Made by a program: the position numbers and the translations under genes
Notes under the pieces: generated by a model
Seen by the model: only the letters and a program-made list of their open reading frames with translations
What the model was told of the DNA's origin: nothing
Database searches by the model: none
Shown here: one piece after another, positions 23,386-54,247 of the stretch
Layout: every line of letters starts with the position of its first letter
How positions within the stretch are numbered: the stretch's first letter is position 1
Source: Carnobacterium divergens DSM 20623
Lineage (GTDB): Bacteria; Bacillota; Bacilli; Lactobacillales; Carnobacteriaceae
Direction of reading: 5' to 3'
NCBI RefSeq assembly: GCF_000744255.1
Contig: NZ_JQLO01000001.1
Span: 1,736,001-1,800,000 of the forward strand
Length of the DNA: 64,000 nucleotides

Positions 23386-24897
23386 CTAATTAATGAATTT
23401 ATTAATTATCATATTTTTTCCCTTTATTGTTAACCTTCTAAAACTTGGAAAAATAGCATAAAATAACACAGTTAAAAGACATATTAATAAAGCTGAATAG
23501 ATACCTGCATGTATAAACCAACTAATCATACTTGTAGTTTTTATAAAATTAGATAAGTAAATTTGACTAAAATATCCAATAATTAAGACCATACTTAGAC
23601 AAATACTATACCGCAATAAGTCATGAAACCATCCTTTAGCATATACTTTTTTATAGATAATATATGGGTAATACCAAAAAGTTAATAGCATAGAGGAAAC
23701 TACCACTGCTATTAATATACCTTTTAAACCTAGTAATTTTACTAAAATAACCGAAAGTATAATATTAATCACAACTTCTATAATTGAAACAGTTTGTGTA
23801 TCTTTATATAAAACTAAAACATCTCTCATTAAGTAATAAGGTCGTCTTGTAACTGTATTAAAGAAAAATAATATTATCAATAAAAAACTAAGCCCATCTA
23901 AAACTTTATCCGCACCTACCCAAATTGAAATAAAATTATTCATGACGTATAACAAAGTTGTTCCAAGAAAAGTTGCAACAAAATAAAACAATATGATTAT
24001 TTCTTCAAAAACAAGAAAACTTCGTTCGTTTTCTTCTTCATATATTAAATTCCCCACACTTGCCATGATTGAAGAAGCAAATAAATAAATAAAATCCAAC
24101 AAATACTTAGTGATGTATTTATAGCTTGAATAAATCGTAACAGCTAATGGTGATAAAAAAGCTGAAATCAATAAAATATCAGTACTATCCTGTGCTGCTC
24201 CTATAAACTTATTATTAAGAGCATAAGCCATACCAGTAATTTTATAATTTCCAGTCTCCTTAACTTCCTTCAACCAACTATATTCCTTAAATATTACTTT
24301 ATTAACCATTACATTTGTTAATATTCGAATAAAAATAGTAACAATTAGAACCGTTACGTAATCCCATCCATACATAATTAATAAAACTTCTGCTAAACTT
24401 TCAACAATCTTATAAAAGTTCATGACCACATTTATTTTATAAATTTTTTGATCTGCTTGAAGTACAAATCTAGGTGAAAACATAAAGTAATCCACTAAAT
24501 TTTTAACTAAAAATAGTAGAAAAACTACTTGCATGTAAGTCAAACTTAGTTGATTATTTGTTAAATAATTTAGAAAGAATGACACAGCCACACCTAAAAC
24601 TAATATAATCAAGGATATCCATCTTAACATACGTTTTGATAATGTATAATAAATATTGATTTCATCATTCTTTTTATCAATTAATAATTTGTAATATACA
24701 TTTTGAACAAGTGCACCCACTCCTGCTTCTGCTAAGGACAAGTATGCAAAAATTTGGAAGAATAGTTGATTTAATGCAAATATATCATTTCCTAAATCTC
24801 TTTGCCAAACACTGACCTTCCAAAAGCCAATAAACATTAAGATGATAAATGGAAATAGGCTAGTAAAAAAATTTTTCATTGAATTTTGTTGTCTCAT
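23386..24897 (-). CDS. Wzx-like polysaccharide flippase
   Basis: This is a membrane protein of about 503 residues with 12-14 predicted segments. Its pattern resembles MOP-superfamily flippases (FIILMFIGFWKVSVWQRDLG and LAEAGVGALVQNVYYKLL near the N-terminus). Such proteins move lipid-linked repeat units to the outer face. The frame begins at 24915, but the ATG at 24897 (MRQQNSMKNF) has GGAG 8 bases upstream. It is the last gene of the polymerase-GT32-flippase unit, which fits a Wzx/Wzy-type pathway. Confidence 0.82.
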   Translation of the reverse strand: MRQQNSMKNFFTSLFPFIILMFIGFWKVSVWQRDLGNDIFALNQLFFQIFAYLSLAEAGVGALVQNVYYKLLIDKKNDEINIYYTLSKRMLRWISLIILVLGVAVSFFLNYLTNNQLSLTYMQVVFLLFLVKNLVDYFMFSPRFVLQADQKIYKINVVMNFYKIVESLAEVLLIMYGWDYVTVLIVTIFIRILTNVMVNKVIFKEYSWLKEVKETGNYKITGMAYALNNKFIGAAQDSTDILLISAFLSPLAVTIYSSYKYITKYLLDFIYLFASSIMASVGNLIYEEENERSFLVFEEIIILFYFVATFLGTTLLYVMNNFISIWVGADKVLDGLSFLLIILFFFNTVTRRPYYLMRDVLVLYKDTQTVSIIEVVINIILSVILVKLLGLKGILIAVVVSSMLLTFWYYPYIIYKKVYAKGWFHDLLRYSICLSMVLIIGYFSQIYLSNFIKTTSMISWFIHAGIYSALLICLLTVLFYAIFPSFRRLTIKGKNMIINKFIN

Positions 24898-24944
24898 AGG
24901 TATATCTCCAATCATTTAATTCAAAGCATAAAATTCTTTAATTG

Positions 24945-25640
24945 TTAAAATAAGCGTTTGTATAGCTTAATTCGATTTTTACTAGTGGTTCTTAATTTAA
25001 CCCATTTGTTTATTTTACGTTTGAGTGGTTTTTGACTCTCCATCCAAGTACCAGTAAAAACATGAATAGTAGAAGAGTTGTCAGAAGGATTGCACAATAC
25101 TCCATCAGGATACACTTTAATCCCTTCAAGTAATAATTGTTCTTTATTATTTACTTTACACTTATATTTATTTATTAAAATATCTGACACAATTTTTGTA
25201 TTTACGTTTTTCATCTCATTATTTTTATCAAATTCAAATGAGACCTGATCATAGTAATCTAAAATATCTTTAACTAACGGATGCTTAGGCTCTGCTCCAA
25301 AAACAGCTGTAAAAGGATATGAAGGATTTTCAAAACCAACAAATGCACGATTTTTAAGAAATTGAGTTAAATCATCTAAAACAATTACATCAGTATCTAA
25401 ATAAATTCCGCCCTCTTCATAGACTACATAAGCTCTAATATAATCACTTACATAGGCCCATTTTTTTTTTGCATATGCCTCTGCAATAAAAGGATGAGCA
25501 TTCATGTCAAAGTTTGTTTCATTCCATTCAATAATTTCATACTCTGATAAATGTTTTTTCCAAGTATCCATGCATTTTTGGATATCTTTCGGCTTATCTT
25601 TTCCACCAACCCATACGTAATGAATTTTCTTTGGAATCAT
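24945..25640 (-). CDS. GT32-like glycosyltransferase with DXD motif
   Basis: This 231-residue enzyme belongs to the DXD sugar-transferase group seen in capsule loci. The N-terminus MIPKKIHYVWVGGK, KWAYVSDYIRAYVVYEEGGIYLDTDV (DTD metal site near residue 98) and the C-terminal IHVFTGTWME are characteristic. It has no membrane segment and acts on the cytoplasmic side. The sugar is unknown. AGAAGG precedes the ATG. Confidence 0.88.
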   Translation of the reverse strand: MIPKKIHYVWVGGKDKPKDIQKCMDTWKKHLSEYEIIEWNETNFDMNAHPFIAEAYAKKKWAYVSDYIRAYVVYEEGGIYLDTDVIVLDDLTQFLKNRAFVGFENPSYPFTAVFGAEPKHPLVKDILDYYDQVSFEFDKNNEMKNVNTKIVSDILINKYKCKVNNKEQLLLEGIKVYPDGVLCNPSDNSSTIHVFTGTWMESQKPLKRKINKWVKLRTTSKNRIKLYKRLF

Positions 25641-25652
25641 TTTACCTTCTCC

Positions 25653-28373
25653 TTACTCAACGATTATTTTTACTTTATGATCAATACACATAAACGTTAC
25701 TAATTCTTTAACTCTTGGTGCATCAAGCTCAGTAGTTCTAATTTGATTAAATCCTTTTTCCATTTCTGACAAGAAATTCAAATAAAATTCTGATAATTTA
25801 TTTTCTATCAAATTTTTATTGAAAGCACGCATATCGCTACCTAAATAAATTTTTTCAGATAAATCTATATTTTTTATAACAATTTCACGATTGTTTTGCT
25901 TTTCATAAAATTCAACTACTGAATTTAAAAAAAGATTCTCTTTAAAATCATTGCCCATTCTTTTATTAATCACAAATTTCAAAATTTGGGCTTCTTTATT
26001 CTCTGGTTTTTTTAAATAAAAAGGCGTATACAGAGATAATAATTTCAATTTATTATAAACTCTAAAAATAGTATATTGTTTATTATAAAATGGAAGTTTG
26101 TAGTTTGGAAACAGTCTTGTTAACGTCCGTATTTCACCATTTAAAACATTTAATTCACCAATCTCAGAGTTAATATAATTGTTTTCATGAATACGATATT
26201 TAATGAATGGAAAACTCACATTTTCAACAGATAACGTTTCTACTCCATTTCTTAAATCTAACCAGTGAGGTGTATTCCATTTCAAATAATTTTGACTTAC
26301 TACATTTTTAAATACATCTGCTTGCCAAAAAGCAACATCAACAAATAAATTTCTACCTAACCATAATACCTGAGTGGCAATAGTTCTATTAGATTTATAA
26401 TAATCAAGTACACGTTGTTTTCCGATTTTTTTTCCTTCATCATTTACTAATTCTAAGTCTGCAATCAATGCATCTGAATTAGTTTGATTTAACTGGTTAT
26501 TTGCCATTTTAAAAACATTTTTATTTGCCAACATATCATCTGAATGTAAAATAAATATATAGTCCCCAGTTGTATGTTCCAGAGCTCTTTGCAACGCATT
26601 TAATTGGTCACTATTCTCTTGATAATAATAATGGATTTTTTCTTGATAATGATTCAATTGACAAAATCCATCAATCTTATTTTTTGTATTATCAGTAGAC
26701 CCATCATCAACTACTATAATTTCCCAATTATCATAATTTTGACTTTTAACAGAATTTAATGATGTTTCAATCGTTTCTGCATCATTATAGCTCGGCATGA
26801 TAACGGATATTTTTTTATTTTTTTTACTCTTTGAAAACAAAACATTTCTCAGTAGTTGCCCTTCAACAAAAGCTAAAATAATTGTTACCGTTAAGAAATC
26901 CATTACATTTCCACTATATAAGGAAACTGATAAAGTTACTAAAACTGATAATAACAACGAACAGTTTTTAAAGGTGAATTGTTCTTTGAATTTTATTAAC
27001 ATTAAAATACCACTAAATAAAAGGATTAGTAAATACGGAACTAATAATAAAAGAACTCCAATAATCCCCATTGAAAAATAGTGTGACTGGAAATCACGTT
27101 CTAGATTAAATATATTATTCATTCTAGTATAGGTAATTCCAAACCAATTATCTTTTGGATTATTATTAATCTCTTTAACACGCTGTAACATTAACGTTTC
27201 GATATTTCTAAAATTCAACTTATCTTCAATTGGTAGTTGCATCACTTCAAACCAAAACTTTGGATCATTTACATAAGGATACGAAACCTCGATAAACTGA
27301 CCATTAATTGAATATTCCACATAATGTTCCCTTATATATTTGACTAGTGGACTTTCTTCTTTATGTTCTTTATCTTTAGTTTTCTTTTCTTCTGTTTTTA
27401 ATTTATTATTTCGTTCAGTTACTACAGTTTTATCACCTTCACGTTGAGATTGAACTTGTTGGTCAAAGTTATTACGATTCATAGTTGGAGAAAAAGGTAA
27501 GATTAATCCACTTAGCACAACCATCAGCAGTAACATCAAGCCTATATTATTATTAAATTTGAATTCTTTTTTGATAAAAGAAAAAAAGAAATACATTCCA
27601 ATTGTAACGACTAAAATTCCAACGAATCCCAAAGAGGCTACTTTAGTGCCCAACATAAACATCGCTAGTAGATGTGTCAACATTAAAATGATATTTTTAG
27701 CATTTAACCGCTTAATTAAAAAATAAAACATCAGCGGTGTTAATAATACAGCTAAAGCTGAAATAGCATTCGCATATGAAAAGAATCCTTTTGAAGCTAA
27801 TTCAAAATATTGCCCTGCATATGAACTACTAAACCAATCAAAGATAGATCCAGTAATTTTTAAATTTGTATAGGATGCCAACGAAATTTTTAAAATATTA
27901 GTTATTACAATACTCCCTGAAACTAAAGCAACTAAAGTACTAACAATTACTTCCATCAGGTTATCCGTAATTTCTTGGTAATAGGAAACTACTAGAATAA
28001 TAAGTGGTAGTGTCATTCTAATTACATAAAACAATTCAGAAAAAAGTGAATAATTAAAATTCCCTGGTACTAATGAATGAAAATTTTGAGCATTCATATG
28101 ATGAAAAACAAAATAGACACCAATCAATACAGCATAAATTATGATAAAGTAATTTATTTTTGATTTTCTATGACAAAATAAAAATAGCACACCTAAAACG
28201 AAAATAATCAAAATCCGCATAATAGTGGCTGGTGAAAATTTAAAAATATTAACAATATTATCCGAATACAGATAATAAATATCTAAAAACGGTTGAATCA
28301 AAATAAATAAAACAAATATTTTTTTTAATGCTTTTTCCAAAATCAAACACTCCAATTTTTTAAATAATTTCAT
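25653..28373 (-). CDS. Fusion of an O-antigen-ligase/polymerase-like membrane domain with a GT2 glycosyltransferase
   Basis: The 906-residue protein has two parts. Residues 1 to about 515 form a polytopic membrane domain of Wzy/WaaL type with a large charged external loop (about 300-430). From about 519 a GT2 domain begins (ISVIMPSYNDAETIETSLNS, VVDDGSTDNT, FILHSDDML). Polymerase and transferase are normally separate proteins. The ATG at 28373 has no ribosome site; an in-frame TTG at 28340 follows GGAG by 9 bases and is a plausible alternative, 11 residues shorter. It is the first gene of the minus unit. Confidence 0.82.
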   Translation of the reverse strand: MKLFKKLECLILEKALKKIFVLFILIQPFLDIYYLYSDNIVNIFKFSPATIMRILIIFVLGVLFLFCHRKSKINYFIIIYAVLIGVYFVFHHMNAQNFHSLVPGNFNYSLFSELFYVIRMTLPLIILVVSYYQEITDNLMEVIVSTLVALVSGSIVITNILKISLASYTNLKITGSIFDWFSSSYAGQYFELASKGFFSYANAISALAVLLTPLMFYFLIKRLNAKNIILMLTHLLAMFMLGTKVASLGFVGILVVTIGMYFFFSFIKKEFKFNNNIGLMLLLMVVLSGLILPFSPTMNRNNFDQQVQSQREGDKTVVTERNNKLKTEEKKTKDKEHKEESPLVKYIREHYVEYSINGQFIEVSYPYVNDPKFWFEVMQLPIEDKLNFRNIETLMLQRVKEINNNPKDNWFGITYTRMNNIFNLERDFQSHYFSMGIIGVLLLLVPYLLILLFSGILMLIKFKEQFTFKNCSLLLSVLVTLSVSLYSGNVMDFLTVTIILAFVEGQLLRNVLFSKSKKNKKISVIMPSYNDAETIETSLNSVKSQNYDNWEIIVVDDGSTDNTKNKIDGFCQLNHYQEKIHYYYQENSDQLNALQRALEHTTGDYIFILHSDDMLANKNVFKMANNQLNQTNSDALIADLELVNDEGKKIGKQRVLDYYKSNRTIATQVLWLGRNLFVDVAFWQADVFKNVVSQNYLKWNTPHWLDLRNGVETLSVENVSFPFIKYRIHENNYINSEIGELNVLNGEIRTLTRLFPNYKLPFYNKQYTIFRVYNKLKLLSLYTPFYLKKPENKEAQILKFVINKRMGNDFKENLFLNSVVEFYEKQNNREIVIKNIDLSEKIYLGSDMRAFNKNLIENKLSEFYLNFLSEMEKGFNQIRTTELDAPRVKELVTFMCIDHKVKIIVE

Positions 28374-28426
28374 TATTTGTATTGTTATAATCTAAATAGA
28401 GAAATTTAAAACTTTATATCTTGTTG

Positions 28427-28435
28427 ATTATAGCA
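28427..28435 (-). promoter_or_regulatory. Extended -10 promoter of the minus polysaccharide unit
   Basis: TGCTATAAT on the minus strand, about 55 bases before the ATG of the polymerase/GT2 fusion. Confidence 0.6.
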
Positions 28436-28592
28436 TATCTTAGAATTAGCATGCAATCTTCTTAAAAAAAAATTAATCTGGAGATTCTTTTAAGTTTTGA
28501 TATTTAATTTTTGCACTTAATTTGTTACTGTTTAAATTCTCTTATTATGTTATTCTTCTATGGTATAGATTAATTTAGAAGGAGATTTGAAA

Positions 28593-30152
28593 ATGAAAAA
28601 AAACAACTATATTATTGGTAGTATGTATCTGTTGATATTTCTATTTTTTGCACTATGCGCTTATAACTTCCCATTAACTGGAGATGATTTGAACTGGGCA
28701 GGTCATTTTGGTGACACTTATTTTAAAGAGGGAATTTACAAATATTACGACGGTCGATACTTAGGAGACTTTTTTATTATTATAATGACCAGAAATCTTT
28801 TTTTAAAAATATTTATTTTTTCAACAGTTTGTACAGTTTTACTCTATTTAATTAATTTGCTTACTGAGCGTAAAAATATTCTTGTAATGCTCAGCAGTTT
28901 TTTAATTATCCTATTAGTTCCAAAAACTATTTTTGCACAAATTTTTGGTTGGAGCGCAGGATTTGTAAACTATGTCCCTTCAATTATACTCCCGCTACTA
29001 TATATATACTTGTTAAAAACTAACTTCAATAAACTATCACAAAATCGACATTTAGATGTAAAATTGGCGTTGTTCTTAATTGTACCTTCTATACTAGGTC
29101 AATTTTTTGCAGAACATGTGACAGTCTATAATGTTTTACTAGCATTTATTACTATCCTCTATGCCTTTATAAAATATAAAAAAATATTTTTTACTAATCT
29201 AAGTTTTTTATTTTCTTCACTAATAGGTGCAGTTTTAATGTTTATGAATGATGCCTATTCTAAAATTGCAACAAAAGATGATGCTTATCGCTCTATGGGG
29301 CTATCTTTAAAAAAATTCTATGATGTTGCTGCTAAAGACATCAACCATTATCTTTTTTTTGACAATAGTATTTTAGTTTTATTACTAAGTTTAGCCGGGT
29401 TATTAATTATTTGGAAAAATAATCATCTGGTATCATCGAAGCAACAAAAATATAGTACAATGATTTTTTCAATTGTTTTTATCATTTATCCGTTATACAC
29501 ACCAATATTAGTTACGAATTTTAATATTTTTCCTTTTGGAAATTATTATTTTTTATTCTCACTATTCTTATCCGCAGTTTTTTATTTAGGGTTGATTTAC
29601 ATTTCGTCCGTTTTTTTAATTGGACAAGATAGAATACTTGCATTACTCTATTTATTTTCAGCACTTGTATTGGCTGCTCCGTTTTTAGTTGTAAGTCCCA
29701 TGGGGCCTAGATGTTTCTTTGCTTCATATGTTTTTTTCACTTTGTTTATTTTACTTGTTATAAATAAATTTACTTTCAAAAAAATGGTTTCTAAAAAAAG
29801 TAGTAAGGTTTATTATAAAAACACTCTAATTCTATTAGCTACTGTATCGATTTTCTTTGCAAGTACTTATTCAATAATGTTTGAACGCATTGGTAATGCT
29901 GCTAGATTAAGGGCTGAGTTCATTGAGTACCAAAAAAAACACTCTAAACAAAATGAAATAAAAGTTTTAGAAGTCCCATATTGGGAATACTTATGGGCTG
30001 TAATGCCGATTCAAGAAGATTCTAGTTTTAAAATATATATGGGATTAAAACCAGATTATCCTTTTATTTTCATACCTTACTCACAATGGCATGAAAATTT
30101 TAAAAATACCGATAATAAATCCGATTTTTTTAAATCTTCAATAGATAATTAA
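28593..30152 (+). CDS. Polytopic membrane protein, DUF6056/GT-C-like
   Basis: This 519-residue protein has about 11 membrane segments. After the first segment lies FPLTGDDLNWAGHFG, then YYDGRYLGDF. An acidic pair in the first external loop is a hallmark of GT-C glycosyltransferases, and the layout resembles DUF6056 proteins of surface-polymer loci. The exact reaction is not known. The frame opens at a TTG at 28587, but AGAAGGAG lies 8 bases before the ATG at 28593. It starts the plus-strand block and ends at its own terminator. Confidence 0.7.
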   Translation: MKKNNYIIGSMYLLIFLFFALCAYNFPLTGDDLNWAGHFGDTYFKEGIYKYYDGRYLGDFFIIIMTRNLFLKIFIFSTVCTVLLYLINLLTERKNILVMLSSFLIILLVPKTIFAQIFGWSAGFVNYVPSIILPLLYIYLLKTNFNKLSQNRHLDVKLALFLIVPSILGQFFAEHVTVYNVLLAFITILYAFIKYKKIFFTNLSFLFSSLIGAVLMFMNDAYSKIATKDDAYRSMGLSLKKFYDVAAKDINHYLFFDNSILVLLLSLAGLLIIWKNNHLVSSKQQKYSTMIFSIVFIIYPLYTPILVTNFNIFPFGNYYFLFSLFLSAVFYLGLIYISSVFLIGQDRILALLYLFSALVLAAPFLVVSPMGPRCFFASYVFFTLFILLVINKFTFKKMVSKKSSKVYYKNTLILLATVSIFFASTYSIMFERIGNAARLRAEFIEYQKKHSKQNEIKVLEVPYWEYLWAVMPIQEDSSFKIYMGLKPDYPFIFIPYSQWHENFKNTDNKSDFFKSSIDN

Positions 30153-30163
30153 AAACCAACGAT

Positions 30164-30205
30164 AAAAAATACTTAATCTATCTATAGTTCAATTAAGTAT
30201 TTTTT
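30164..30205 (+). terminator. Terminator after the DUF6056-like gene
   Basis: A 14-bp AT-rich stem (30164-30177 and 30192-30205) runs into a T-tract 12 bases after the stop codon. Confidence 0.8.
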
Positions 30206-30243
30206 TTCAGTACTTTTTTTGCATAGAAGTGGTATTGTATTTA

Positions 30244-30252
30244 TGTTATACT
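30244..30252 (+). promoter_or_regulatory. Extended -10 promoter for the glucosaminidase gene
   Basis: TGTTATACT on the plus strand, giving an untranslated leader of about 150 bases before the candidate start codons. Confidence 0.5.
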
Positions 30253-30448
30253 TTCGATTAGATGTGTTAAGCTATATTGATTTTATAGATTTTTTGTAAT
30301 TTAATTTACATGAAACTGAAAGTTAATATGGACTTAATAAAATGTATTAGTTAAACTGTTTTCGAATACATTAACTAGTAATCATTTCATAGAAAAGGAG
30401 CTTTTATTAGCAAAATGAAAAAAAAATGAAAACTATAAAAAAATACTC

Positions 30449-31957
30449 ATGTACAGCTCACTATTCCTACTGTGTTCAACAACTTTACCTCTAAATGTCT
30501 TAGCTGAAAAAGTACAATCAAATGAATCTTCTCTTAAATCAGTTGATATTCCCGATTCTACCGAACCTGAGGCAACTAATGTTACTACAAATGATCATTT
30601 AGACAATAGCGCTAGTTCTAGTTCTAATGAAGAAACAGAAAATAAAGAAAACACAACCGAAAATGAAATTCCCCCTAATGATATTGATATTAGCAAAACT
30701 TATTCTCAAGAAGCTGCATGGAGTGCTGCTATGAATAAACAACCTGAAATTTTTTCACGCTCATTCATGAGTAGTGAAAGCTTTATAGATTCTATCGCAC
30801 CACATGCTGTCAAGGTTGCAACTGAACGTGGGCTATACCCATCTGTTATGATGGCTCAGGCAATTCTAGAAAGTGGTTGGGGAAAAAGCGGATTAGCATC
30901 AGCACCCAACTATAACTTATTTGGGATAAAAGGAAGCTACAAGGGTCAGTCTGTAATGTTTCCTACTTGGGAGTTTATCAATGGTCAATGGGTAACTGTG
31001 CAGGCAGCATTTAGGAAATATCCTTCTTACACTCAATCATTTGAAGATAACGGAGACTTATTGAGAAATGGATTAACTGGGGACCCAAACTTTTATTCAG
31101 GTACTTGGGTTTCTAACACGTCCTCATATCGTGATGCTACTCAATGGTTACAAGGTCGTTATGCTACTGATCCAACCTACGCATCTAAACTGAATTCTAC
31201 TATCGAAGCTAATAACTTAACTCAATATGATACTATTCAAAAAAATTATCGTATTTCTATTGAAGATTTAAACTTTGTAAGCCCAACATATGCAAAGCAA
31301 GCTCAAGAACAATTAACATCTGTCTTTCCAATTTGGTCGACTGTAGTTCCAAGTAATCAAATGAAAAATTATGCCTACATTCAAACTGGGGATTTCTTAA
31401 ATAAAGTAGATGCTGAACAAGTAAATAAAAATTTTATGACTAGTACTGGTTTTTGGGCATCTGTTGAAAAATCAGATAAATCAAGACCCTATTATCGTGT
31501 TGAAACTGGTGGTTTTCTTGGAAAACAAACAGCTGATATGGTCCTATCAAAATTCATAAAAGATACTGGCTGGTGGGCTGAAGTTGTTCCTACTGGTGAA
31601 CAAAATAAATATAAAATTATTACAGGAGATTTTTTAGATCCACTAGATCAAGACTCCGTAGTTCGTTACTTTGCATCTGAAAAATGGTGGAGTACTGGAT
31701 TTGTTAGTCAAAAAACACCTGAACCATATTACAAAATAGTCACTGGTAATTATCTGAATCACCCTGATGCAGTGAAAAGCAGCAAAGATTTTTTTGCTGC
31801 AAATAATGTTTGGGCTCAATCATTAGATAGTACTTTACAATTTCAGCTTTATAAAATTAATACTGGTGGTTTTGGTACCTATGAGAATACTCTGCATTGG
31901 AAAACTATGATGGAAAGTAAATTTAATTGGAATATGACCATTGAGGAAGATCTTTAA
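30449..31957 (+). CDS. Secreted GH73 glucosaminidase with C-terminal repeats; 5' end disrupted at poly-A
   Basis: From 30449 the frame gives most of a signal peptide (SLFLLCSTTLPLNVLA, then EKV), an acidic linker, a GH73 domain (about residues 112-265, AILESGWGKSG with likely catalytic E141) and about six repeats of 40 residues (YxIxTGxF cores near 310, 349, 388, 428, 468). No well-placed start is in frame. AAGGAG (30395-30400) precedes an ATG at 30415 that runs through nine A's into TGA, and an ATG at 30426 is also out of frame. One A fewer in the A9 run, or one more in the A7 run at 30437-30443, restores a full signal peptide. This may be slippage, phase variation, mutation or a sequencing error. 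Confidence 0.85.
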   Translation: MYSSLFLLCSTTLPLNVLAEKVQSNESSLKSVDIPDSTEPEATNVTTNDHLDNSASSSSNEETENKENTTENEIPPNDIDISKTYSQEAAWSAAMNKQPEIFSRSFMSSESFIDSIAPHAVKVATERGLYPSVMMAQAILESGWGKSGLASAPNYNLFGIKGSYKGQSVMFPTWEFINGQWVTVQAAFRKYPSYTQSFEDNGDLLRNGLTGDPNFYSGTWVSNTSSYRDATQWLQGRYATDPTYASKLNSTIEANNLTQYDTIQKNYRISIEDLNFVSPTYAKQAQEQLTSVFPIWSTVVPSNQMKNYAYIQTGDFLNKVDAEQVNKNFMTSTGFWASVEKSDKSRPYYRVETGGFLGKQTADMVLSKFIKDTGWWAEVVPTGEQNKYKIITGDFLDPLDQDSVVRYFASEKWWSTGFVSQKTPEPYYKIVTGNYLNHPDAVKSSKDFFAANNVWAQSLDSTLQFQLYKINTGGFGTYENTLHWKTMMESKFNWNMTIEEDL

Positions 31958-31979
31958 AATTTATTTTCTTTCTAACTTA

Positions 31980-32011
31980 TTGAAGCAGATTTCAAATAAA
32001 TTCTGCTTCAA
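31980..32011 (+). terminator. Terminator after the glucosaminidase gene
   Basis: A 10-bp stem (31980-31989 and 32002-32011) is followed by a T-run, 22 bases after the stop codon. Confidence 0.85.
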
Positions 32012-32049
32012 TTTTTTTTATTAAAATGACTACAGTTTAGGGGGATTTC

Positions 32050-33336
32050 ATGATACATTTTTTCAAAAAAAATAAATTACTTTTAGGAGTAATACTCATT
32101 GCTTTAATTGAAAGGCTTGTAATACTATTTCAATTAGGGTTTCGATATAGCATAAACAGTGAAGATATTTTATATCTTGAAAGTGGTATTCATTTAATGA
32201 AAACAGGTGAATTAACACTAAACGGCATGCCAAGTACCATCATGCCTGCTCTTCCAGTAATTATTGCACTCCCTCATACAATATTTGGTAGCACAGATGG
32301 TTTATGGTTATTCTTAAAATTAGTAATGATTGCTTTTAGTATTCTATCAATAATTGGAGTTTATAAAATTATAATTCTATTTTCGCCAAAGTGGATAGGA
32401 GCACTAGCTGCTTTACTATTTTTAACTCCAGATTTTATTTGGATAGATAATTTAATTTTAACTGACTCTCCATTTATGTTTGCTTTTGTTTATACTGTTT
32501 ATTTTTCAATAATGTTACAAAAAACTCATGAATGGAAATATTACTATTTGTTAACAGCTACATATATGTTTGGACTACTATTGCGCTCAACATTCTTAAT
32601 ATATCCTTTGATTTTATTGGCTTTTTTATTTTTCACAAATTTTCCAGTTAAACTATTGTTAAAGCAAGCAATAATAACATCAATTATTTGTCTTCTTTTT
32701 TTCATTCCTTGGACACTTCGTAATTATCTTATTTTTGATCATTTTATTCCAACATCCTTTGAATCTGCTAGTTCAAAATTATTAGGAACTTACCAAGGAT
32801 ATGGCTTTCCAGAAGACACAAAAAAAATTAATAAAGAATTAGAGTTACAACTTAAAGAACTCAGAACAACTCATTATAAAAACGGAAAATATATTCCTAG
32901 CTATATGGGGGCATACTATGCTATGAAGTATGATAATTTAAAAGCCAATTATCGTAATACTTTATGGATTAAATCAAATCCAAAAAGTATGCTTATCTCA
33001 TATGGTTACTCAAAACCTAAAACTATTATGACTTCATCTTTTTCAGAAAAAAAATTACTTGGAATCAATAAATTACTAATTCAGAAATTCAAAAAAATCG
33101 AACTAATTATGACTATTAGCTTAGGATTTATAAGTATGTTTTTTCTTAAAAACATTAGGAAATATATATTGTTTATGGCTAGTCTCTATATTGTTAACGT
33201 TTATTTATATGCCATTCCAATTAATTTTCAATATTCTGGTCAATCATTACTTTTCTTACGATACACTATTTTGTTTATTAGTATCTATAACATTTATTTG
33301 TACATTAAAGAAAAGAAAACTAAACAAGTAAAATAA
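32050..33336 (+). CDS. PMT_2/ArnT-like GT-C membrane glycosyltransferase
   Basis: This 428-residue protein has about 10-11 membrane segments and an N-terminal loop YSINSEDILYLESGIHLMKTGELTLNG, with the acidic residues typical of dolichyl-phosphate-mannose or ArnT-type GT-C enzymes. FIWIDNLILTDSPFMF follows. Such enzymes use lipid-phosphate sugars outside the membrane, so the GtrA/GtrB pair could supply the donor. AGGGGG lies 5 bases before the ATG. The acceptor is unknown. Confidence 0.78.
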   Translation: MIHFFKKNKLLLGVILIALIERLVILFQLGFRYSINSEDILYLESGIHLMKTGELTLNGMPSTIMPALPVIIALPHTIFGSTDGLWLFLKLVMIAFSILSIIGVYKIIILFSPKWIGALAALLFLTPDFIWIDNLILTDSPFMFAFVYTVYFSIMLQKTHEWKYYYLLTATYMFGLLLRSTFLIYPLILLAFLFFTNFPVKLLLKQAIITSIICLLFFIPWTLRNYLIFDHFIPTSFESASSKLLGTYQGYGFPEDTKKINKELELQLKELRTTHYKNGKYIPSYMGAYYAMKYDNLKANYRNTLWIKSNPKSMLISYGYSKPKTIMTSSFSEKKLLGINKLLIQKFKKIELIMTISLGFISMFFLKNIRKYILFMASLYIVNVYLYAIPINFQYSGQSLLFLRYTILFISIYNIYLYIKEKKTKQVK

Positions 33337-33356
33337 TCTCAATCAGTTGATTAATT

Positions 33357-33365
33357 TGTTATAAT
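33357..33365 (+). promoter_or_regulatory. Extended -10 promoter for tagA-GT4-LtaS-like unit
   Basis: TGTTATAAT on the plus strand, about 40 bases before the tagA ATG. Confidence 0.65.
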
Positions 33366-33407
33366 GGATACATTACAAAATCATTCCCTAAGGAGACAGA
33401 TTACATT

Positions 33408-34142
33408 ATGAAAAAAATTGATATATTAGGAATCCCCTTTGATAATTTAACAAAAAAACAGTTTGTCACTGAAATAATGAATAACAGTGATGCCAATAAA
33501 AAAACGTTTATTGTTACAGCCAATCCAGAAATTGTCATGTACGCAAAAGAAAACACTTCATACAGTTGTTTATTGCATGAAGCTGATTATATTACAGCCG
33601 ATGGTATAGGAGTTATTAAAGCTAGCCATATGTTGAACACTCCAATTATTGAACGCGTAGCTGGTTTCGACTTAATGATTTCTTTATTGGAAGAAGCCAA
33701 TAAAAAAAATAAGCGAGTATATTTTTTAGGTGCAAAAAAAGAAGTAGTTAAATTAGCTACAGAAAATGTTGCTACTAATTACCCAAATATTATTATTTGT
33801 GGATTTCATGATGGCTATTTTGGTGCTAATGATTCAACCATAATGGAATCAGTTCAAGCATCTAATCCAGATTTTATATTTGTTGCTTTAGGATTTCCTC
33901 GTCAAGAAGAATGGATACACACTTATTTAAAAACTGCTTCAAAAGGTATTTTAATGGGTGTAGGAGGTAGTTTTGACGTACTTTCTGGTAAAGTGAAGCG
34001 TGCACCAAAAATATTCCAAAATTTACATTTAGAATGGCTGTATCGCTTACTTAAACAGCCTACTCGTTTTGTGAGGATGTTAGTTTTACCAAAATTTTTA
34101 TTAGAAGTTAAAAAAGTTATAAAAGAAAAGAAGGTGAAATAA
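33408..34142 (+). CDS. tagA: UDP-ManNAc:undecaprenyl-PP-GlcNAc ManNAc transferase (TagA/WecG)
   Basis: TagA adds ManNAc to the GlcNAc-diphospho-undecaprenol made by TagO, forming the linkage unit of wall teichoic acid and related polymers. GT26 features are ILGIPFDNL, VTANPEIVMYAKE, the catalytic-region DYITADGIGV with Asp near residue 65, and ALGFPRQEEWI with GVGGSFDVLSGKVKRAPK. Length (244) is standard. No TagB, TagD or TagF follows; instead a GT4 and an LtaS-like enzyme do. Its stop codon overlaps the next start as TAATG. Confidence 0.93.
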   Translation: MKKIDILGIPFDNLTKKQFVTEIMNNSDANKKTFIVTANPEIVMYAKENTSYSCLLHEADYITADGIGVIKASHMLNTPIIERVAGFDLMISLLEEANKKNKRVYFLGAKKEVVKLATENVATNYPNIIICGFHDGYFGANDSTIMESVQASNPDFIFVALGFPRQEEWIHTYLKTASKGILMGVGGSFDVLSGKVKRAPKIFQNLHLEWLYRLLKQPTRFVRMLVLPKFLLEVKKVIKEKKVK

Positions 34143-35233
34143 TGAAAGTCTTACACATTAATGTTGGTGCAGAAAATGGTGGGGGAAAAACACATATTAT
34201 TTCACTTTTATCACAATTTAATTCCAATGAAGCTGAGTTATTAGTTCTTGAAGATGGAATCGTTGCTCAAGAAGCTCGAGCACTCAATATTAAAGTGACA
34301 GTTATTCCACAAACTTCTAGATATGATCTTTCAGTACTGAAAAAAATTATTGTTTTTATTAATAAAAACAACTTTGATCTAGTTCACACCCATGGACCTC
34401 GTGCAAATTTTTTAATCAATAAAATCCGTAATAAACTAAACGCAAAATGGGTCATTACTGTTCATAGCAACCCCAAATTAGATTTTATGAATCGCGGACT
34501 TAAAGGAAAATTATTTACTTTTTTAAACTTAAAATGTTTAAAAAAAGCGGATGCTTTAATTGCTGTTACTGAAAATTTCAAAAAAATGTTAATTGAATAT
34601 GGATTGAATGAAAAAAATATTTATGTTGTATATAATGGAATTATTTTTGATGATACACCTATAAAAAAAAGGAATAAAAATTCAATTTTTACAATGTCTT
34701 ATGTTGCTAGATTACATCCCATAAAAGGACATAGTTTATTGTTTAAAAGTTTATCCAAAACAAATATTCCTAATTACAAACTAAATATTATCGGGGATGG
34801 AGATTGTCTATCTCAATTAAAGAAAGAGGCTTCTGAATTAAAAATAGATTCTTTTATACATTTTTTAGGATTTAAAAATCGTGAAGAAATAGATCAATTA
34901 GTTTCTGAATCTGATATCACCTTACTAAGTTCCTATAGTGAGAGTTTCCCTCTCGTACTCCTTGAATCTGCTAATCAACATGTTCCTTTTATATCTACTG
35001 CTGTTGGAGATGTCCACAAACTAATTCCTAATGAAAAATATGGGTGGTTAGTTCCCATCGATAACCAGCTTGCCTATACAAAAGCTTTAGATGATGCATA
35101 CCGCTCTTGGCTAGATGATACACTCATAGCAAAAGGTGAAAATATTTATAAACTAGCTTCTACTAATTTTTCATTAGATAAACTTTATCAAGATACTAAA
35201 AAAATTTATTTAGATGTTCTTAGAAAGGAATAA
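34142..35233 (+). CDS. GT4 family glycosyltransferase
   Basis: This 363-residue GT-B enzyme has an N-terminal domain (LHINVGAENGGGKTHII, DLVHTHGPRANFL) and a C-terminal donor-binding domain (SYVARLHPIKGH, NIIGDGD, SSYSESFPLVLLESA with the E-x7-E motif). It is cytosolic. Overlap with tagA by one base shows translational coupling, so it probably extends the TagA product. The sugar added cannot be named. Confidence 0.9.
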   Translation: MKVLHINVGAENGGGKTHIISLLSQFNSNEAELLVLEDGIVAQEARALNIKVTVIPQTSRYDLSVLKKIIVFINKNNFDLVHTHGPRANFLINKIRNKLNAKWVITVHSNPKLDFMNRGLKGKLFTFLNLKCLKKADALIAVTENFKKMLIEYGLNEKNIYVVYNGIIFDDTPIKKRNKNSIFTMSYVARLHPIKGHSLLFKSLSKTNIPNYKLNIIGDGDCLSQLKKEASELKIDSFIHFLGFKNREEIDQLVSESDITLLSSYSESFPLVLLESANQHVPFISTAVGDVHKLIPNEKYGWLVPIDNQLAYTKALDDAYRSWLDDTLIAKGENIYKLASTNFSLDKLYQDTKKIYLDVLRKE

Positions 35234-35234
35234 A

Positions 35235-37073
35235 ATGTCCATCCATACAAAAAAAATTATTTACTACTCAGCTCAATTAATTCTAGCTTTCCTAACACCA
35301 CAGCTACTTTTCCGACTCTTAGAAGGTAGCTTTTTAGATTTTAACTACAATTTTGTTGATGATTTTATTAATTTAAATCCAGAAATTTATAAATTTTCTT
35401 ATTTAATTTTATTTTTAATCGTTTTGTGGTTCTCATCAATTTTAGGAGATATTATTTCTGGAAGTATCATCACAAGTACAATTATGATAGCTATCGCCTA
35501 TGCAAATGCACAAAAGATGCATTCAAGAAATTTCCCTCTCGTTCCAGAAGAATTATCTATGATTTCAGAAGTTAAGTCCCTAATAAAAATGGTTAATTTA
35601 AGTCAGTTACTTCTAATTGGATTAGGAATTCTATTTTTAACTGGACTCACTTTTTTTATTAAATATTATTTTTCATTTAAATTGAAAATAACTTTCAAAT
35701 CTAAATGGGTTTTCCTATTCAGAACTATCTCCTTATGCTTTTTATCAATCAGCCTTTATTCAATTATTCAAATTAGTAACCCTGATTCTGCAGCTGGGAA
35801 ATATGCACAAAAAAAAGGCATTGAATTTTTAGAATGGAATCAAAATGTTAATTTTATAAATAACGGATTTGTTCTAGGCTTCACTTATAATATAAATTCT
35901 TATGCTATGGAAAAACCAGAAAATTACAATCGTAAAAATATTGAAAAAATTGTTACTAAATATAAAAAGCAAACAGCTAAAAAAACAGATACTGCACTTG
36001 ACGTTAATGTCATCTATATTATGAATGAATCTTTTACTAATCCGGCTAAGAGTAGCAATATTTATCAATATGGAGAAAACCCAATTCCATACATTTCAGA
36101 AATTTTGGAAAATTATCCATCTGGTCAAACATTAGTAGGCGAATATGGAGGTGGCACAGCTAACATTGAATTTGAAGCTTTAACTAGTTTTTCAACTTAC
36201 TTTACTAAAGGTACTCCTTATCAAAATTCAGTCTCCAAGGTTAAAGATTTCCCAAGTATTGTTTCGTATTTTAATGACTTAGATTATCAAACAACAGCTC
36301 TGCATCCTTATTTTAAAACAATGTATAAGAGAGATCTTGTATATCAAAACTATGGTTTTGATAATTTTTATGGAATTGATGAGATGGAACATGTAGGAAT
36401 AATTTCACCATCTTTACATGTAAATGATGGTGAAGCTTATAAAGATGTATTGAAACAACTAAATAGTAATGAAAAAAATCAATTTATTTTACTGATTACT
36501 ATGCAAAATCATATTCCTTATGACCCTGACTATCTTTCAAATGAATTCTATATTGAGAACGATACTATTGATCAAGAAAAAAAACAAGCTATGTCTGCTT
36601 ATTTAGGAAGTCTTAATTTATCCGATCAAAGTTTTTATGAATTGACACTAGAATTATCTAAAATAGAAAAAAAAACTGCTGTCGTATTTTGGGGAGATCA
36701 CTATCCAGGTTCCGATATCTATAAAGACCTTTTTGAAGTAGACCAACAACAAGTTCATCAAACCCCTTTATTTTATTGGACAAATTACCAAGAAAAAGAT
36801 TCAGAACTAGGTACTATTAGTCCAAACCAAATAACTAATAATTTATTAGATATTATTGATTACCCAAAAACCCCCTTTTTAACTATGATTAATGAATTAG
36901 AGAAAACTATACCTGCATTAACTAAAGAAATACACTTAGATTCTAACAATCATATAATTGGACCATCTGAATTAAATTCAAAAGTAATGGAAGATTATCG
37001 CTTAATTCAATATGACATACTTTTAGGGAAAAATTATTCAAAAAAATTAAATTTTTTTGAACTTTTAAATTAA
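35235..37073 (+). CDS. LtaS/GacH-like phosphoglycerol transferase (sulfatase fold)
   Basis: This 612-residue protein has an N-terminal membrane domain (about five segments to residue 180) and an external sulfatase-fold domain. YIMNESF (E265), GGGTANIEFEAL with candidate nucleophile T308, and VVFWGDHYPG hold the metal-site residues of LTA synthase relatives. LtaS adds glycerol-phosphate to lipoteichoic acid, while GacH-type members decorate wall polysaccharides; the cluster setting favours the latter. The frame opens at 35214, but AAAGG precedes the ATG at 35235 by 6 bases, just after the GT4 stop codon. Confidence 0.88.
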   Translation: MSIHTKKIIYYSAQLILAFLTPQLLFRLLEGSFLDFNYNFVDDFINLNPEIYKFSYLILFLIVLWFSSILGDIISGSIITSTIMIAIAYANAQKMHSRNFPLVPEELSMISEVKSLIKMVNLSQLLLIGLGILFLTGLTFFIKYYFSFKLKITFKSKWVFLFRTISLCFLSISLYSIIQISNPDSAAGKYAQKKGIEFLEWNQNVNFINNGFVLGFTYNINSYAMEKPENYNRKNIEKIVTKYKKQTAKKTDTALDVNVIYIMNESFTNPAKSSNIYQYGENPIPYISEILENYPSGQTLVGEYGGGTANIEFEALTSFSTYFTKGTPYQNSVSKVKDFPSIVSYFNDLDYQTTALHPYFKTMYKRDLVYQNYGFDNFYGIDEMEHVGIISPSLHVNDGEAYKDVLKQLNSNEKNQFILLITMQNHIPYDPDYLSNEFYIENDTIDQEKKQAMSAYLGSLNLSDQSFYELTLELSKIEKKTAVVFWGDHYPGSDIYKDLFEVDQQQVHQTPLFYWTNYQEKDSELGTISPNQITNNLLDIIDYPKTPFLTMINELEKTIPALTKEIHLDSNNHIIGPSELNSKVMEDYRLIQYDILLGKNYSKKLNFFELLN

Positions 37074-54016: not shown

Positions 54017-54059
54017 AAATAAAATCCTACCTTCTGTTTGATATAGTTGTCGTTTCTAG

Positions 54060-54198
54060 GTACTTGGCAATTTCTTTGTTAACAAATCACTTTGTATTTT
54101 TAGAATTGCCTGTAGACTGCACTGCCTAGAGCCATCCGCCGAATCTTTCGATAAGCTCTCTCCTCGTCACCATTTTTTTGATAAAATGGCCTGGCGCT
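54060..54198 (-). ncRNA. glmS ribozyme-riboswitch
   Basis: On the minus strand the leader shows A|GCGCCAG (predicted self-cleavage between 54198 and 54197), then TGACGAGGA, TTATCGAAAGATTCGGCGGATGG and a downstream stem-loop, matching the glmS ribozyme core order. Glucosamine-6-phosphate acts as the cofactor for cleavage, which leads to mRNA decay and feedback control of GlmS. The 3' boundary is approximate. Confidence 0.93.
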
Positions 54199-54247
54199 TT
54201 TATTGGTATACCACATTTCTAATATGATATTTCTAGAAACACAATTA

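Follow-up and report, generated by a model that had tools for sequence, protein, structure and literature searches.

A glucosaminidase gene of Carnobacterium divergens DSM 20623 was found to have its sole start codon equipped with a Shine-Dalgarno (SD) sequence, ATG 30415, out of the gene frame, owing to the length of a tract of nine adenines (A9) that follows it. Positions are those of the window, namely the whole stretch of 64,000 nucleotides that was analysed. The A9 may well be genuine, as one allele of a 5’ poly(A) tract prone to slippage, captured at its OFF or near-OFF length, and this explanation, while tentative, is the one preferred here. Most likely, the gene is an ordinary slippage switch or a young loss of function that was found out of frame, with an error in the sequence being possible.

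Glucosaminidase gene and its start region

The features of the locus are as follows.

23386..35233: species-specific polysaccharide/glycosyltransferase cassette holding the hydrolase gene, delimited by comparison with the collinear genome G001
30151..30218: inverted repeat (arms 30151-30184 and 30185-30218) with a T8 run, 3’ of the upstream gene, a likely terminator (function inferred)
30393-30400, plus strand: Shine-Dalgarno sequence AAAAGGAG, 14 nt 5’ of ATG 30415, pairing energy -8.1 kcal/mol
30415..30429, plus strand: SD-driven frame of ATG 30415, four codons (MKKK-TGA)
30418..30426, plus strand: A9 tract, which fixes the frame of ATG 30415
30427-30429: TGA ending the MKKK frame, overlapped by ATG 30426
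30426..30494, plus strand: decoy frame from ATG 30426, 22 aa (MKTIKKYSCTAHYSYCVQQLYL), then TAA at 30492
30437..30443, plus strand: A7 tract, with heptamer A_AAA_AAA in -1 slip phase as read from ATG 30426
30449..31957, plus strand: glucosaminidase (GH73) ORF, 502 aa from ATG 30449, with signal core and C-terminal repeat domain
30797..31219, plus strand: GH73 catalytic domain, residues 117-257 (PF01832, E=4.5e-35; PDB 7qfu, E=1.8e-56)

The identity of the gene product as a glucosaminidase, proposed in the initial annotation, was borne out by a complete GH73 domain with an intact catalytic region. The match to PF01832 scored 121.4 bits against a gathering score of 30.2, and the best solved-structure match was the peptidoglycan hydrolase 7qfu, with Listeria Lmo1076, 3fi7, also matched. 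The active-site region, including the catalytic Glu motif, is kept (AQAILESGWG vs AQAIVESGWG in 7qfu). The catalytic domain with its AxxESGWG region is thus common to this protein and other GH73 enzymes (7qfu, Lmo1076, FlgJ), whereas its C-terminus consists of repeats in place of the LysM found in the GH73 glucosaminidases compared.

Between a TGA at 30416 and 31957, the main gene frame stays open, giving 512 codons without any stop or further lesion, among which the first ATG is that at 30449. As the frame is fully open and the GH73 active-site region is kept, any lesion would have to be recent. The product of ATG 30449 starts with a hydrophobic signal core (MYSSLFLLC) followed by a cleavage-like VLA-E, and the frame directly 5’ of this codon encodes a positively charged n-region (KKNENYKKIL), which, as judged by eye, completes a signal peptide (KKNENYKKILMYSSLFLLCSTTLPLNVLA-E).

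The pairing of ATG 30415 with the anti-SD sequence is close to the median of approximately -8.3 kcal/mol for the best starts of genes of the same genome, whereas ATG 30426 and ATG 30449 were without SD pairing in the same energy computation (+0.4). The sequence is exactly as had been described, with an SD upstream of ATG 30415 and nine A’s after it leading to a TGA, and ATG 30426 is likewise out of frame, its 22-aa peptide stopping at 30492. It had also been proposed that the main frame could be gained by loss of one A from the A9 or by gain of one A in the A7. The former stands for ATG 30415, from which the gene frame requires the A9 minus one A, or plus two, while the A9 plus one A takes this start into the decoy frame. 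The latter holds only in part, as a change in the A7 is useful only for ribosomes starting at the SD-less ATG 30426, with the SD-driven ATG 30415 depending on the A9 alone.

The likely terminator 3’ of the upstream gene suggests that the hydrolase gene probably has its own promoter. An imperfect inverted repeat (TATTAGTTAA ... TTAACTAGTA) was also observed in the RNA fold at 30340-30385, 5’ of the SD, and possibly forms an operator or an mRNA hairpin.

Proposed slippage at the A9 and other 5’ poly(A) tracts

In the proposed mechanism, ribosomes would load at ATG 30415, make MKKK and either stop at 30427 or enter the decoy frame, such that the exported enzyme would not be produced at a normal level. 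Slippage of DNA polymerase by one base would then flip a cell from OFF to ON or the reverse, at a rate far above that of point mutation, as has been measured for swrA (8/9 A) and inlA (6/7 A). This supposes that the isolate truly carries A9, that its cells would switch and that switching would be useful. The locus resembles other 5’ slipped-strand loci in that a homopolymer within the first codons sets the frame of the true start, with the gene otherwise intact. The switch is favoured by the position of the only SD start behind the A9, the intactness of the remaining gene, the occurrence of this arrangement in a single ORF of those sampled, the depletion of long A-runs, the assembly control (both described below) and the precedents. 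Counting against it, an ortholog with a comparable tract was not found.

Among these precedents, the poly(A) tract of Bacillus subtilis swrA, near nt 20-27 and appearing as poly(T) on the opposite strand, is OFF with 9 bases and ON with 8 bases (PMC2831843, PMC13228054), with changes from 9 to 8 occurring at approximately 1e-4 and from 8 to 9 at approximately 1e-5 (PMC2831843). As in the present gene, the homopolymer of swrA lies at the extreme 5’ coding end, its 9-base form is frameshifted and the rest of the gene is intact (PMC2831843, PMC13228054). However, swrA encodes a regulator, and its length variation and reversion have been measured, whereas the tract described here is known from one assembly. 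In Listeria monocytogenes, inlA possesses an A6/A7 5’ tract, of which the out-of-frame length results in a truncated product of 8 aa (PMC2831843). This gene shares with the hydrolase gene a secreted or surface-located product and a tiny peptide when out of frame (8 aa for inlA, 4 aa here), but its A6/A7 tract is polymorphic between isolates, in contrast to an A9 seen in one assembly.

The occurrence of A-tracts was investigated in a sample of 464 kb, comprising the window and 20 evenly spaced 20-kb stretches, with 368 ORFs of at least 120 aa. No clear in-frame SD start was found for 23 of these ORFs, and the hydrolase ORF was the only one to lie behind an A-tract with its SD-driven ATG out of frame. 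Tracts of A7 or longer were present within the first 40 nt of 47 of the 368 genes, approximately 2.7 times the 17 or so expected from the density of A-tracts in genes; 5’ A-tracts are thus common near starts in this genome, in line with the survey of Orsi et al. (PMC2831843). When codons were shuffled among synonyms to obtain expected counts of coding A-runs, A7 runs were over-represented (310 vs 259 expected), A8 runs were neutral (101 vs 98.7) and runs of A9 or longer were depleted (17 vs 48.5). Following the argument of Baranov et al. (PMC1088944), this depletion suggests that runs of A9 or more are of a harmful and slippery length in this organism, and it does not separate DNA from RNA slippage.

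Of all coding A-runs in the 464 kb sampled, the longest was an A12 run near L070:4863, located some 25 codons from the start of a sugar-transferase-like gene (L070:4246-4977, minus strand). This run is in frame and is possibly a better candidate for phase variation than the A9 of the hydrolase gene. Two neighbouring and similar lipoprotein-like genes (LKKKLLI...GCYN; L062:15785 and L062:16579) were also observed to have an A9, which in one of them is situated directly after the start codon.

Should the tract be genuine, a peptidoglycan hydrolase joins the genes that are switchable by a 5’ poly(A) tract. For annotators, the locus also carries a warning: they would enter it as a pseudogene or, failing that, as encoding a protein that lacks a proper signal peptide, and may be mistaken in either case.

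Alternative explanations

Of the other explanations, a miscall of one A in the A9 (or A7), with the gene normally being in frame, retains the most weight, although it is considered unlikely. Sequencing errors gather in long homopolymers, and one base in what is the region’s longest homopolymer would suffice to explain everything. Moreover, approximately 100 A9 runs are expected in the genes of the genome (17 in the 18% sample), such that one miscall would be unsurprising. Against this, the assembly is a single contig of 2.62 Mb that is 99.95% complete, and the 17 other runs of A9 or longer sit within intact ORFs. As a control, collinear stretches were sampled from G001, a sister genome, giving 153 shared genes with a median protein identity of 98%. 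No true frame break was found in these 153 orthologous genes, which hold 212 A/T runs of at least 7; among these, 62 runs of at least 8 and seven of nine A’s all lie in unbroken frames. The absence of breaks over the 62 runs of at least 8 places the error rate per such run below approximately 5% (rule of three). One apparent break relative to the sister genome (L067/L168) was rejected, being due to an over-long non-coding 5’ extension. A sequencing error, which the initial annotation had regarded as the simplest alternative, is therefore still possible but weakened by this control.

A recent plain loss, in which a one-base insertion made a young pseudogene without adaptive switching, is improbable, even though a fixed and useless loss of function would give the identical sequence signature to that of an OFF switch. 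It is in keeping with the location of the gene in a species-specific cassette in turnover, and six places with a glucosaminidase domain were found in this genome, making redundancy likely. However, no second lesion has accumulated across the 512 codons, and the A9 is of the same kind as the tracts found in reverting switches.

Constitutive recoding, whereby a low and fixed dosage would be attained by transcriptional slippage at the A9 or A7, or by ribosomes that re-initiate at ATG 30426 and slip -1 at A_AAA_AAA, is judged quite improbable. In its favour, A9 is a classical length for slippage of RNA polymerase (PMC1088944, PMC5009743), ATG 30426 overlaps the TGA at 30427 as coupled starts do, and the heptamer is in -1 phase, such that a slip there rejoins the gene frame with a good signal peptide. 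A run of at least nine A/T at the frame change is also shared with the programmed transcriptional slippage of Thermus dnaX, Shigella mxiE and Citrobacter tssM; in those genes, however, the slip takes place inside a long ORF and an insertion leads to an alternative product, whereas here it would fall in the first four codons and a single insertion leads to the decoy frame rather than to full-length protein. The slips of bacterial RNA polymerase on poly(A) are mostly insertions (PMC6260861), and the favoured one, of a single A, would thus bring translation from ATG 30415 into the decoy frame. To reach the gene frame, the A9 would have to lose one A or gain two, yet deletion rescue by the E. coli enzyme was absent on the poly(A) runs tested, with nothing detectable below A8 (PMC6260861). 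The initial annotation had suggested that secretion is switched or metered by slippage; switching through replication slippage fits the sequence and the precedents, while metering through transcriptional slippage is disfavoured by the direction of the slip.

With regard to ribosomal slippage, a heptamer of the X_XXY_YYZ type is present in phase, but A_AAA_AAA is a poor one, being much less prone to shifting than A_AAA_AAG in E. coli (PMC5009743). No stimulatory structure was found 3’ of the heptamer (z +1.46, with 192 of 200 shuffles folding at least as well), nor was an SD-like stimulator found in the sequence close 5’ of it, the nearest GGAG being more than 35 nt upstream. No homologue with the recoding layout was found, 18 genomes of the family having yielded no ortholog and 395 genomes of the order only distant ones. 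A low leak through these slippage routes may nevertheless exist. Very improbable is the more specific proposal of a two-tract recoding start, in which a stop at MKKK, a restart at ATG 30426 and a -1 slip on A_AAA_AAA (or slipped transcripts) would give low and noisy export by design; if true, a wall hydrolase of a swappable surface-polysaccharide cassette would be dosed at its start.

Least probable of all is re-initiation at ATG 30449 after MKKK-TGA, the arrangement then acting as a mini-leader for a slightly short working protein, as this codon, while in the gene frame, 19 nt 3’ of the TGA and followed by a hydrophobic beginning with VLA-E, is without an SD and further from the TGA than ATG 30426, and, unlike Sec signal peptides, MYSSLFLLC has no positive n-region, while the frame just upstream encodes one.

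Polysaccharide cassette and homologues

The cassette was found to contain transporter-like, glycosyltransferase, DUF6056, PMT-like and TagA-like genes (Pfam, with names partly assigned by eye). Its genes had no counterpart in the sampled collinear stretch of the sister genome, apart from the GH73 domain. The flanking genes on both sides are mostly more than 75% identical to those of the sister genome, beyond a sulfatase-like gene of 36% identity at 35214-37073; those flanking the swapped cassette were mostly more than 90% identical between the sister species. In place of 23386-35233, the sister genome carries another polysaccharide gene set (L162:8819 to L163:500), which includes a secreted glucosaminidase (MKNKKITLGIVFIIVMSVLFPSLSTIVYATE...) that has a normal in-frame start and is not an ortholog. 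Each of the two cassette versions was thus observed to have its own glucosaminidase, with architectures unrelated outside the catalytic domain.

From this comparison, the hydrolase looks like a component of a surface-polysaccharide cassette that can be swapped. Provided that the tract is real, the switch would be placed within a polysaccharide cassette that is itself variable, and on/off cutting of the wall could there alter chaining, autolysis or surface display between sister cells. Neighbouring genes of the cassette also possess 5’ A-tracts, these being in frame (A8 at 28596 and 32065, A7 at 33411).

No near copy of the locus was found in collections of genome contigs, viral contigs and plasmids, and phage and plasmid records matched the GH73 domain only, at no more than approximately 62% identity. 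Conservation of the upstream region was limited to A/T-rich chance matches. No ortholog with the same C-terminus was present among 18 genomes of the family, and 395 genomes of the order yielded only distant orthologs of 31-33% identity; an ortholog with a comparable tract or ORF layout was not found in either set. Similar C-terminal repeats were present only in two distant genomes of the order (G111 and G167), in both of which a glycosyltransferase gene adjoins the equivalent gene. Among other proteins of the genome, YfhO aligned only with relatives at 26-37% identity (Furfurilactobacillus, Vagococcus and others), and GroEL was 81-85% identical to those of Vagococcus, Enterococcus and Listeria, which places the organism near Vagococcus/Enterococcus.

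Elsewhere in the window, a glmS ribozyme was observed at 54056-54209 (minus strand), situated 5’ of the gene for glucosamine-6-phosphate synthase.
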